64,000 bases of DNA, from the NCBI GenBank assembly GCA_011364905.1, contig RDNZ01000007.1, positions 1 through 64,000 of the forward strand. The letters run 5' to 3'. The stretch comes from Candidatus Thorarchaeota archaeon. GTDB taxonomy: Archaea > Asgardarchaeota > Thorarchaeia > Thorarchaeales > Thorarchaeaceae. A program made the position numbers and the translations under genes. Below the pieces are notes generated by a model. The model was not told the origin of the DNA, did not search any database, and was given only the letters and a program-made list of their open reading frames with translations. Below are positions 59,378-63,618 of this stretch, one piece after another (the first letter of the stretch is position 1; each line of letters opens with the position of its first letter).

Positions 59378-61618
59378 CTAGATCCAATCGCCAGTTTCGA
59401 GCTTTCGCGGGAGATATTCGTCTGTTAGATACTCAAAGCTGTGACTAGCAAATGCTTGGATCTCAGCTTTCTCTTTCAGTTTCAGCATCAACTCTAAGTC
59501 ATTCACCCAAGGCTTGTTACGCTTTACAAATGGTTCCTTTAACATGTCTTTTACTCGCTTGATGTCATTGGGCTGCATTGGGATTCGAACAGCTTTTGGA
59601 ATCTTGTATTCATCCAGGTCACGACTTAATACTCCTAAGAGTTTCAATTCTGGTGTAGCGATGAAGGGCGACTCATAACTAAGCCTCTTACTGCCTCGAA
59701 GGAACACAGAGTATATGTAGTGTCCATATGGGTCGGAATCAACAAGCGCAAATGCAGGAATCTCCAACTCTTTGACCAGCATCTTTAGGAAGGCTCTTGT
59801 AGCAATGTCTCCCGAGCCTTTCCCGGTTATTACGATGCAAGGTTGCCGGTTCCAGTACTTTGCTTCTGCAAGTCGCATGACTGCAGCATCTTTCTCAGAT
59901 AGAATAATGAACTCCGCATCACTCTCGACAATCTCAAGCTGGTCTAAGAAGGGAGTAACGGCCCACCCACCAGTTCCCATTTTGGTAAGGTCGATGAGGT
60001 CACCACCATCTCGAATTGTCACACGACCCATTGCTGAACCTCTGGCTGACGCAACAACATGAATGCTATCTCGTGTCGTTTGAATCATCGAAGCAACATC
60101 TTCAATGATCTTGTCACTGTACTTCTGCTCTCTAAAGAGATTGACATCACTGTAGTAGACCTCTCTTTTGGTTGCGTGAAGGTGCAACTTCAGCAAGTTG
60201 AATACTATCTCCATGACACGAGCAGTTCTTGTTGCATCAACAACAGATGCCAGTGAGTGATAGGGGCGAGAAATTGTACGCATTCCTAAGAGCAAAAGAT
60301 CACGAACCTCATCCCAGACGATGTTGTCACCAGACCTACTCGGTATGTCGAAAGCTGGTCTGCCACTCATCATGGTTTCATTGAGAATATCTAATGCAGT
60401 GTCAACTATTCTCTCGGTTGTTTCATCCGCTGTTAGACTAACAACTTCAACAGTTTCAAGAATTGGTTTTGCTTCCTCATCTGATTCATTTCTATCCTGA
60501 ATTTTTTGTTCCGCATTCGCCCAGTTCTCTTTCAATTCGATTGCCAAACTTTCGACAGCTTTTGGCACATGTAAACCTGAATCTTTTCTCACTGGTTTGG
60601 GTTTCTTCTTGGGTGGCCTTATAGGCATCTTCGTGGGTTTTCTTGCAGGAGGCGATTTCTTTTTTGGCTGAGCTCGCTTGCGCTCCTTTCTTTTTTGGGG
60701 CTTCTTTTCTGGTTCTTCTTCTTCTTTTGCTGGTTCTTCAATAACCTGAGGGGTTTTTTCCTCAGGCAGAACCTTGGCTGAAACCACAGTTTCTGGCTCT
60801 CCGACTAACTCAGCTAATTCTTGTTCGCGAATCAATCCCTTTGCGGCTCTCACAAATGATGTTGCTTTTGCTGTACTCAAACCCCCCACTTTCTTTGCGA
60901 CATTTTCAGGGGAAGCTCTCGCCAATCGAGCCACAGAATCATAACCAGCCCGCTCTAATGAGAGGGCGAGTTTCGAACCCAAGCCGGGAACGTCGGTCAG
61001 AGATAGTTTTGGAGGTGAGATTGCCTCCTCCTCACCACTTACCTGTGTTTCAAGTTCATCCACAGGCGTAGTGGCTTTTTCGTGTCTTTTGACCATCTCT
61101 TTTGCAGTATCTACTAGTTTCTTAGCTCCAGACAGACTGAGACCTTCAACCTTCTTTGAAAGAGAAGCAGGCCGTGAACGTGAGATCTGTTCAACGGTTT
61201 CATACTTTGCATCAATCAGCCTCTCTTCCAGTTTAGATCCTACACCAGGGAGCTGAGTCAGACTGAAGGAGCTTTCTGGAAGTGCAGGTTTTGCCTTTTT
61301 CTTTGCAGGGGACTCTTTCTTCTTTGAACCAGCCTTCTTTTTCTGAGTTTGTTTCTTATCAGCTGGCTTTTTCGATGGCTTTTTTGAACCAGCCTTCTTT
61401 TTCTGAGTTTGTTTCTTATCAGCTGGCTTTTTCGAAGTCTGTTTCTTCACAGCTGGTTTTTTCGATGGCTTCTTTTGACTCTTGGACTTAGTTGCTTTCT
61501 TAGAAGGGCTTTTGGAGCTCTTTCTTGCCGATTTCTTCTTCGTTTTTTGTTCTTCAACAACGTCACTAAGAGTTGCTTGAACCGTGTCCTGTTTGTCTTT
61601 CTTTTTCTTACGACTCAA
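59378..61618 (-). CDS. top6A: DNA topoisomerase VI subunit A with H1-like tail and HhH domains
   Basis: At 746 residues it is about twice the usual 360-390. The core is about 375-746: catalytic Tyr in EVYYSDV (Tyr488/Tyr489; the second aligns with the Spo11 Tyr), toprim Glu in LSEKDA, and DSDPYG as the DxD pair. The extension has a Lys/Ala/Ser/Pro-rich tail (about 1-115) like histone H1, with an exact 53-base repeat (61323-61375 and 61383-61435). Two RadA-like helix-hairpin-helix domains follow (about 116-172 and 205-262), then another basic linker. TTG 61618 overlaps the subunit B stop by 4 bases. Confidence 0.92.
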   Translation of the reverse strand: MSRKKKKDKQDTVQATLSDVVEEQKTKKKSARKSSKSPSKKATKSKSQKKPSKKPAVKKQTSKKPADKKQTQKKKAGSKKPSKKPADKKQTQKKKAGSKKKESPAKKKAKPALPESSFSLTQLPGVGSKLEERLIDAKYETVEQISRSRPASLSKKVEGLSLSGAKKLVDTAKEMVKRHEKATTPVDELETQVSGEEEAISPPKLSLTDVPGLGSKLALSLERAGYDSVARLARASPENVAKKVGGLSTAKATSFVRAAKGLIREQELAELVGEPETVVSAKVLPEEKTPQVIEEPAKEEEEPEKKPQKRKERKRAQPKKKSPPARKPTKMPIRPPKKKPKPVRKDSGLHVPKAVESLAIELKENWANAEQKIQDRNESDEEAKPILETVEVVSLTADETTERIVDTALDILNETMMSGRPAFDIPSRSGDNIVWDEVRDLLLLGMRTISRPYHSLASVVDATRTARVMEIVFNLLKLHLHATKREVYYSDVNLFREQKYSDKIIEDVASMIQTTRDSIHVVASARGSAMGRVTIRDGGDLIDLTKMGTGGWAVTPFLDQLEIVESDAEFIILSEKDAAVMRLAEAKYWNRQPCIVITGKGSGDIATRAFLKMLVKELEIPAFALVDSDPYGHYIYSVFLRGSKRLSYESPFIATPELKLLGVLSRDLDEYKIPKAVRIPMQPNDIKRVKDMLKEPFVKRNKPWVNDLELMLKLKEKAEIQAFASHSFEYLTDEYLPRKLETGDWI
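61323..61435 (-). repeat. Direct repeat encoding part of the Top6A lysine-rich tail
   Basis: Two identical 53-base copies, 61323-61375 and 61383-61435, offset by 60 bases (20 codons), so the frame is kept. They encode tandem K/S/P/Q-rich units and show that the tail grew by recent in-frame duplication. Confidence 0.85.
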
Positions 61619-63618
61619 TCAAGCTCACCTTCTTCGGAGGTATCTTCCCCATTATCTAATGGAATGTCGGCGATAAGGTCAGTCCCGAGTGCATCAGTTT
61701 CAGTTTCCTCTTGGTCCTCAACTGTTTCAAACCCGGTTATCGAATCTCGTAGCTTACTCGCAATTGTTTCAGCATCAAAAAGAGGCTTCTTCTTACCATC
61801 ATTGGCAATAGTCACCAAGCTCTGTGCAAACTGATCAGCATACATCGCAAGAATGCCTGCGCGCTTGGCCTTCCTTCGTGCTGTTTCACGCCTGGTAATG
61901 AATCGCCTGAATTTTCGTCCAGCATCCTCGAGGGCGAGTTTGATCTCTCTTAGAAGCACCTCGTCTTCTGCGAGGGCTTGTTTACTCTGCCCCTTAAACA
62001 TGACATGCACATAGGCTCCTGCGACGTGAATAAACACCATTACAGGTCCTCGCGGAATTCCATTATCAAAGGTCTGCAATTTGTAGTTCTTCCAGTTCAC
62101 TAGTGCCGTAGCCTTCCAAGTGGCGCAGTCGCTATTGTCTCTGAGTTTTGGAACCCGATTCACAAATCGCCAAAGGACCATTGGCGCAGATGATGCAGAT
62201 TTGATCTCACCGCCATAAGCAATACAAACCTCAATGGCAAACGATAGACCTTTTCCTGAGGTGGGCTTTCGTGTCACTGCGGCTACAAAGTCTGGCTTGT
62301 ATGCCATCTTAATTGTTTGTTCGAATATCTCTTCTCCAACTGGCACAACAGTATCAGTGGGAGGTGCTATATAGTCCTCGCTTGAAAAGGAGCGATAGAG
62401 TAGCTCAACTTCTGTCTTAGACAGAGAGTCTGTTGGTGTTGTCATTTTAAGATCATCAAGATGCCTTCTTCGAAGGTCTTTACTTGCATTGGCAATAATC
62501 GTCCTAGCTTTATTGGTACTTAGACGACAGAACGCTTTTGTCAGAAAACCTCGTAGATCCGATTCCTTGGTTTCCCTTAACAGATCTTGAAACTCACCAA
62601 TCCTAATACTTGCGGGGTGAGGTTGAGCATACTTGGGTTCTTCTGGGAATGTATTCACCCTACGTGGATGAATGTGAACCAAACCGTAGGGATCAATAAA
62701 GATGATTGTCACATGAGAGTTTAGTAGTGATGCCATCTCTGCATATACATCAGCATAACCTCGTCGATATTGGATATTCAGATAGTATAATCTGATGTAG
62801 GTTCCGTGATTGAAAGGAAGGTCCATGTCTATTGGTCCACCAACATGTTCCTTGGTGTTTGCAGTGGTCGTGTAGAAGTTGGTTACTGTAGCCATATCAG
62901 TATTGAATCGTTTTGATATTGTAAAAATGGGCTTTCCAGTAGTGTTTTGTGCATCACTGAATGCTGATGGAGCACCAAATCCTTGGCTGCCTCTCGTTTG
63001 CCTCAGTTTCTCAGACTTACTTGATGCTAGATAGATTCCAAATTTCTCCAAGTCATTTGGAACCATCCCTACGCCAGTATCGAAACAGGTGAACTCGTAT
63101 ACCTTGAAGCCTTCTTCGTCATCAATGGGAACAAGGTCAGGCATCTGAACTTCTTTTAGCTCCATGACCACTAGAGGTTCTCGTTTAGATATGAGAGTGC
63201 GCAAAGGCACCACGAACTTTCGAAACTCAGTAATTCGTTCATCGATGGTTTCCTTGCGTCTCGCAGGTATCTCTACTTCCTTGCCAGCTCGCACATCTCG
63301 TTCAAGCTGCTTGCTGAGTGCAATAGAATCAATTTGCCCTTCTTCTAGTTTAGCTCGAACCTCAGCAATAACAGCAGGATCTAGCTGATCTTGAAGACGA
63401 GGGTGTCGCTTTGCTTTCCACCACCAACTCTCAAGAGCATCAATGGCATTGTCCAAGAACTCGATTGCGTACTGTGTATGTTTGTTAAGTCCTGTTTCAA
63501 AACCGACAAGCTGGGTACGTTTTCTCATGAATTTTGCAATTGTACCTTGCTTGATGTCTCCTGACTCGGCCTTGATTACCGTAGGAGCTGGATTTGAATT
63601 GGATTTTTTCCCGGACAA
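61615..63618 (-). CDS. top6B: DNA topoisomerase VI subunit B
   Basis: A 667-residue GHKL ATPase subunit that opens and closes the topo VI gate. N-box EFLDNAIDA (Glu53, Asn57), G1 DTGVG (180-184) and the lid RGSQGFG (209-215) are present. About 120 residues separate N-box and G1 instead of about 40, so roughly 80 charged helical residues are inserted in the ATPase domain. Start is TTG 63618 with GGAGTGA upstream. It is the first gene of the top6B-top6A unit. A TATA-like run lies at 63727-63736. Confidence 0.92.
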   Translation of the reverse strand: MSGKKSNSNPAPTVIKAESGDIKQGTIAKFMRKRTQLVGFETGLNKHTQYAIEFLDNAIDALESWWWKAKRHPRLQDQLDPAVIAEVRAKLEEGQIDSIALSKQLERDVRAGKEVEIPARRKETIDERITEFRKFVVPLRTLISKREPLVVMELKEVQMPDLVPIDDEEGFKVYEFTCFDTGVGMVPNDLEKFGIYLASSKSEKLRQTRGSQGFGAPSAFSDAQNTTGKPIFTISKRFNTDMATVTNFYTTTANTKEHVGGPIDMDLPFNHGTYIRLYYLNIQYRRGYADVYAEMASLLNSHVTIIFIDPYGLVHIHPRRVNTFPEEPKYAQPHPASIRIGEFQDLLRETKESDLRGFLTKAFCRLSTNKARTIIANASKDLRRRHLDDLKMTTPTDSLSKTEVELLYRSFSSEDYIAPPTDTVVPVGEEIFEQTIKMAYKPDFVAAVTRKPTSGKGLSFAIEVCIAYGGEIKSASSAPMVLWRFVNRVPKLRDNSDCATWKATALVNWKNYKLQTFDNGIPRGPVMVFIHVAGAYVHVMFKGQSKQALAEDEVLLREIKLALEDAGRKFRRFITRRETARRKAKRAGILAMYADQFAQSLVTIANDGKKKPLFDAETIASKLRDSITGFETVEDQEETETDALGTDLIADIPLDNGEDTSEEGELD

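Follow-up and report, generated by a model that had tools for sequence, protein, structure and literature searches.

Topoisomerase VI A subunits normally consist of little more than a catalytic core, and the Top6A gene of a Candidatus Thorarchaeota genome encodes an extended protein of 746 residues (top6A, 59378–61618, minus strand; open reading frame and Pfam). Is the additional N-terminal part translated together with the core, and if so, what does it contribute to the enzyme? The gene was analysed within a window of 64,000 nucleotides, the whole stretch of DNA under study (contig RDNZ01000007.1, positions 1 to 64,000), and compared across the Asgard phylum (228 genomes), in which the family of the Thorarchaeota lineage, f1, is represented by 47 genomes from 13 genera. 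All window features given below lie on the minus strand.

Catalytic core and Top6B partner

The core occupies residues 389–746 (59381–60454) and is made up of 5Y-CAP/winged-helix and Toprim domains, as assigned by Pfam and alignment. TP6A_N was matched at 67.1 bits (1e-18, cut-off 26) and the Top6A/Spo11 Toprim domain at 182.9 bits (7e-54, cut-off 24.1). The catalytic tyrosine, Tyr489, which aligns with Tyr106 of M. mazei, was invariant in 22 sequences together with Glu575, Asp627 and Asp629, in keeping with the first-pass annotation, which had described the core as standard. The match to Top6A (1.5e-57) was far stronger than that to Spo11 (7e-7), and the protein is not closer to Spo11. The catalytic domain of topoisomerase V is not present; the core is a type IIB Top6A and only the helix-hairpin-helix (HhH) part discussed below resembles topoisomerase V. 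The core aligned over its length with the solved Top6A of Saccharolobus shibatae (2zbk) and Methanosarcina mazei (2q2e), with which it shares the tyrosine, the Toprim acidic residues and an adjacent Top6B, whereas these A subunits, at 369–389 residues, have no room for HhH domains, a Lys tail or a Q-x-T-L motif. Judged by sequence, the product is a bona fide topoisomerase VI A subunit.

The partner gene top6B (61615–63618) encodes 667 residues with GHKL and transducer domains that align with solved Top6B (transducer 3.5e-42 in Pfam) and keeps the WKxY motif. Its last 42 residues (61618–61743) form an acidic C-terminal tail of net charge -16 by composition. Across the family the charge of this tail ranged from -7 to -20 (last 29–46 residues); in the remaining families of the phylum, the last 45 residues carried -7 to +9. 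The ranges touch, yet in most family members the tail is much more acidic. In the ATPase domain of Top6B, an insertion of roughly 100 residues relative to M. mazei lies between the N-box (EFLDNAIDA) and the G1-box (FDTGVGM); it is apparently common to other Asgard Top6B. Topoisomerase VI senses DNA crossings and bends via Top6B elements (PMC5922973). Loss of such DNA-sensing residues was considered as a reason for the Top6A extension and rejected: as read from the alignments, two of the three basic residues of the M. mazei H2TH are missing, but apparently so in S. shibatae too, and WKxY is kept.

Two more Top6B/Top6A-like gene pairs were found in the same genome, at L002 (1495–3982) and L003 (1423–3635). 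Pairs of this type recur in the family, and their identity to the core of the main Top6A is 26–31%. Both Top6A-like proteins keep the YY catalytic region, and the Toprim motif of L003 reads DMS instead of DxD.

Reading frame and layout of the extension

The TTG start codon of top6A shares four bases with the stop of top6B and is preceded by a GAAGGTGAG-type ribosome-binding sequence. Comparison of Top6A genes in the family placed ATG, GTG or TTG at the same start position, and in the nearest relatives a GAAGGTGAG or GGAGGTGAG-like sequence lies 5' of the aligned start. In every part of the extension pN was far below pS, most strongly in the HhH domains (0.09–0.18 versus 0.6–0.9). Since this constraint is accompanied by an architecture that recurs across the family, the extension is not a product of chance. 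Extension and core are most likely translated as one protein, as the comparative evidence suggests. That the core instead starts near residue 351, leaving the extension as a distinct product or separate gene, is hardly credible: a GTG at codon 351, the sole internal start that yields a core of normal length (396 residues), is found in just two of 22 sequences (GTT in 9, GTC in 7, GTA in 4), both the ribosome-binding sequence and the bases shared with top6B agree with the distal start, and no complete relative has a stop or a separate gene. The internal start and the separate upstream gene had both been raised in the first-pass annotation as grounds for abandoning the fusion, and the relatives contradict both.

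The extension adds about 350 residues to an ordinary Asgard Top6A. The extra length first reported was thus real but slightly overestimated at 370, as 40–70 residues already precede the conserved core in a typical Asgard Top6A. At its N-terminus, the family alignment revealed the motif TVQATLSDVVE (residues 12–22, 61553–61585) with a conserved Q-x-[TS]-L, which is PIP-box-like but for the absence of the aromatic pair. A Lys-rich tail, disordered as judged from composition and pLDDT, follows (residues 23–112, 61283–61552). Residues 1–118 are 37% Lys with a net charge of +37, and pLDDT was about 30 over residues 1–115 in the full-length AF2 model. The core of that model was poor, probably on account of a shallow alignment, and only its HhH and helix parts were used. 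Inside the Lys tail lies a 60-bp tandem repeat (61319–61438; two copies, 95%), of which copy positions 5–57 make up the exact 53-base repeat noted at first. No homologues of the Lys tail were found elsewhere in the genome.

Two HhH domains were identified by Pfam, profile and AF2, the first with a PGVGSK hairpin (residues 118–175, 61094–61267) and the second, beyond a spacer, with a PGLGSK hairpin (residues 204–262, 60833–61009). A variable linker that is first acidic and then basic (residues 263–340, 60599–60832; composition and alignment) leads to a conserved block, RKxSGLxVP plus the helix EMKxxW, which joins the extension to the core (residues 341–377, 60488–60598; alignment). The helix was predicted by AF2 at residues 353–377 with a pLDDT of 82–84. 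This SGLPVP-helix block, the Q-x-[TS]-L motif and the acidic Top6B tail had escaped the first-pass annotation.

Distribution and variation in the family

Database relatives of the extended Top6A are nearly all Candidatus Thorarchaeota. Within f1, the extension was observed on every Top6A whose N-terminal half lies on its contig, a tally that leaves aside a few genes truncated at a contig end or by masked bases. Open frames of Top6A in the other families of the phylum reached at most about 510 residues among those listed, most being 395–480. The fusion is accordingly lineage-specific, as had been proposed, and recurs in all 13 genera. The f1 cores grouped together on a long stem, in one clade supported at 100/100, and the comparative data are most simply read as a single gain of the arm on the family stem before diversification.

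The number of HhH domains per Top6A is two in most members, four in L051, L052 and L056, five in L055 and seven in L058 and L059. Fresh, lineage-specific tandem duplicates are evident: the first and second domains of L051 are 95% identical and the second to fourth of L055 are 74–82% identical. The suggestion that the arm has been growing recently thus applies both to the 60-bp repeat in the window and to HhH arrays in other genera. The HhH domains, Q-x-[TS]-L and the SGLPVP block are constant. Variation is concentrated in the Lys tail, which is short or absent in several genera (L030, L034, L055, L058 and L059), all of which retain HhH domains. The seven-HhH clade (L058, L059) has lost the Lys tail, and its extension as a whole carries a net charge of -9 to -11; the Lys tail is therefore dispensable. 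A trade-off between HhH number and Lys-tail charge was considered and set aside, the Spearman coefficient of -0.60 being uncorrected for relatedness and reflecting a handful of events.

Gyrase A was absent from the window genome and from 45 of the 46 other family genomes, and topoisomerase VI is therefore probably the main type II enzyme of these cells. The sole gyrase A match in the family (1.9e-120; G013:C269:7923-9038) comes from a single genome of the same genus as the window and is either contamination or a recent transfer. Gyrase loss was rejected as the trigger of the arm, as its absence alone does not explain an arm that several other gyrase-less families of the phylum do without.

In other, Heimdall-like families the N-terminus of Top6A bears another type of domain, about 80 residues long and ubiquitin-like, with a match to ubiquitin/Rad60-SLD. 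It was seen in L082 (from 12658, plus strand), L084 (1365–2783, minus strand), L086, L087 and L088, with matches in L082 to PF11976 (6.7e-8) and PF00240 (3.5e-7) and weaker ones in L088.

Function of the arm

Pfam detected HHH_5 twice in the extension (2e-16). The GhGx[KR] hairpin, a DNA-contacting pattern, is kept in 94 of the 96 HhH domains of family Top6A, meaning that the HhH domains are conserved wherever the extension recurs, as anticipated. Against solved structures, a profile of the HhH pair matched topoisomerase V best (3e-15), followed by Rad51/RadA (4e-10), and topoisomerase V was also matched by the single HhH-pair sequence without a profile. The AF2 model of the pair had a mean pLDDT of 81, and each domain superposed on the N-terminal domain of RadA at about 1.0–1.3 Å over 58 residues. 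The domains had first been called RadA-type; they do share the fold, and about 32% identity with the RadA of the same window, but the best solved match is topoisomerase V, and the RadA domain sits on a recombinase. Within the genome, HhH1 is 41% identical to the HhH domain of a membrane protein, 32% to RadA and 31% to that of Rpo6, the respective values for HhH2 being 38%, 32% and 37%. Thus the Top6A domains show no special closeness to RadA over the HhH domains of Rpo6 and the membrane protein, and the genome's closest relative of HhH1 is the membrane protein.

This multi-pass membrane protein (L004, 1480–3060, minus strand; L133–L151) is family-wide and bears a C-terminal, cytoplasmic-looking HhH domain, in many cases with a poly-Lys tip; it may possibly link membrane and chromosome. 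The RNA polymerase subunit Rpo6/RpoK (L006, 1450–2130, plus strand) has an N-terminal HHH_5 domain (3.8e-11). HhH domains were also found within open frames of 2283 and 2219 residues (G025:C82:26337-26717 and G025:C9:19685-19864) in a genome whose own Top6A has seven HhH.

On balance, the extension is probably an auxiliary DNA-binding arm, acquired once on the Thorarchaeota stem, that raises the affinity and processivity of the enzyme. The HhH domains, in most species along with the Lys tail and linker, would hold the flanking or crossing duplex while the Top6A dimer cleaves. Such added contacts near the Top6A gate would increase affinity and processivity and improve the capture of DNA crossings. 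The acidic tail of Top6B might screen or position the basic arm; electrostatic pairing of the two is only a suggestion, and a weak one, as the charges of Top6A extension and Top6B tail were uncorrelated (Spearman 0.16, p 0.36). A DNA tether, which the first-pass annotation had also proposed, is made plausible by the HhH type and fold and is favoured by the near-invariant hairpin and by the topoisomerase V and RadA profile matches. It is weakened by the net negative extension of the seven-HhH clade and by the fact that domains of the HHH_5 type also bind proteins.

These same observations point to a less probable reading, in which the HhH domains recruit a partner (RNA polymerase, the clamp, a histone or another chromosomal protein) and so site topoisomerase VI at transcription or replication, with DNA binding of minor importance. 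NusA AR2, a protein-binding HhH domain, was among the structural matches, and NusA AR domains recruit proteins. The HhH type is also not reserved for DNA enzymes, since Rpo6 and the membrane protein of the same genome carry it. Against this, the hairpin is retained almost throughout, the DNA-binding topoisomerase V and RadA were well ahead of NusA in the profile matches, and the surroundings of the HhH domains are strongly basic in most family members.

The N-terminal motif bears on a further alternative, which we regard as unlikely: that Q-x-T-L is a degenerate PCNA box coupling topoisomerase VI to the clamp, the Lys and HhH parts serving mainly as a flexible spacer that adds auxiliary contacts to DNA. 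Q-x-[TS]-L was present in all 36 complete Top6A N-termini of the family despite the hypervariable tail behind it. Its form, Q[AST]TLx[DE], agrees over the first six positions with the terminal clamp boxes of two proteins of the same genome, QSTLSDFF in FEN1 and QTTLTDFF in a protein that, from reading of its sequence, is like the PolD large subunit. The full PIP box (Q-x-x-hydrophobic-x-x-aromatic-aromatic), however, is not matched, as the defining aromatic pair has given way to other residues, mostly V, L or I. Genome-wide, the clamp-box pattern occurred three times versus four in a reversed control, so that the weight of this agreement lies entirely with the identities of the two genes. As a clamp box the motif is only a lead. 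Within the favoured DNA-binding arm, a docking role of the peptide is probable, with the sliding clamp as a possible partner.

That the Lys-rich region compacts chromatin like a linker-histone tail, independently of catalysis, is quite improbable: the high Lys content and charge and the one archaeal histone encoded by the genome would fit, but the tail is short or absent in several genera that keep their HhH domains and Pfam reported no H1 globular domain, and the initial description of the tail as histone-H1-like comes down to composition.

DNA-binding arms are known on other topoisomerases, while none was found described on topoisomerase VI as far as could be searched. The open-licence literature returned nothing on an HhH arm in Asgard topoisomerase VI and, for the enzyme beyond Asgard, general reviews only, and a 2024 survey of topoisomerase VI distribution mentions neither helix-hairpin, fusion nor domain architecture. 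As far as could be searched, the HhH/Lys-armed topoisomerase VI is a real, conserved variant undescribed in that literature. The earlier remark that no role is described for such a tail on topoisomerase VI holds to this extent, but there is precedent for an HhH array on a topoisomerase, the best solved match being topoisomerase V. In Methanopyrus kandleri, that enzyme carries 12 tandem (HhH)2 domains as an array after its core, AP-lyase domains included (PMC9489208). Both enzymes combine a topoisomerase core with tandem HhH domains, and among solved structures the HhH pair is closest to topoisomerase V. That enzyme has another core, whereas in Thorarchaeota the core is type IIB, the array is N-terminal and the domains are fewer. 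In actinobacterial TopA, Lys repeats are reported to confer processivity (PMC7398561). The likeness here lies in the Lys-rich tail, which in TopA is C-terminal and belongs to a type I enzyme. By analogy, the arm is most likely convergent with topoisomerase V and with the TopA tails. Plant topoisomerase VI has the DNA-binding accessory subunits BIN4 and RHL1, extra components like the Thorarchaeota arm but separate proteins.

A broader and decidedly tentative proposal is that Thorarchaeota topoisomerase VI is a processive enzyme tethered to chromosome and replisome by a clamp-docking peptide, a charged arm, an expandable HhH array and an acidic Top6B tail, and so an independent Asgard counterpart to what eukaryotic topoisomerase II has in its basic C-terminal domains. 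For a relative of Spo11 to grow its own DNA-tethering arm would be notable, and if the arm binds DNA, evolution has here converged with topoisomerase V and TopA. The natural series of enzymes with two, four, five and seven HhH domains, with and without the Lys tail, offers a ready test for auxiliary DNA contacts: in Asgard archaea without gyrase, it would show how such contacts determine the processivity of a type IIB enzyme, its capture of crossings and its decatenation.
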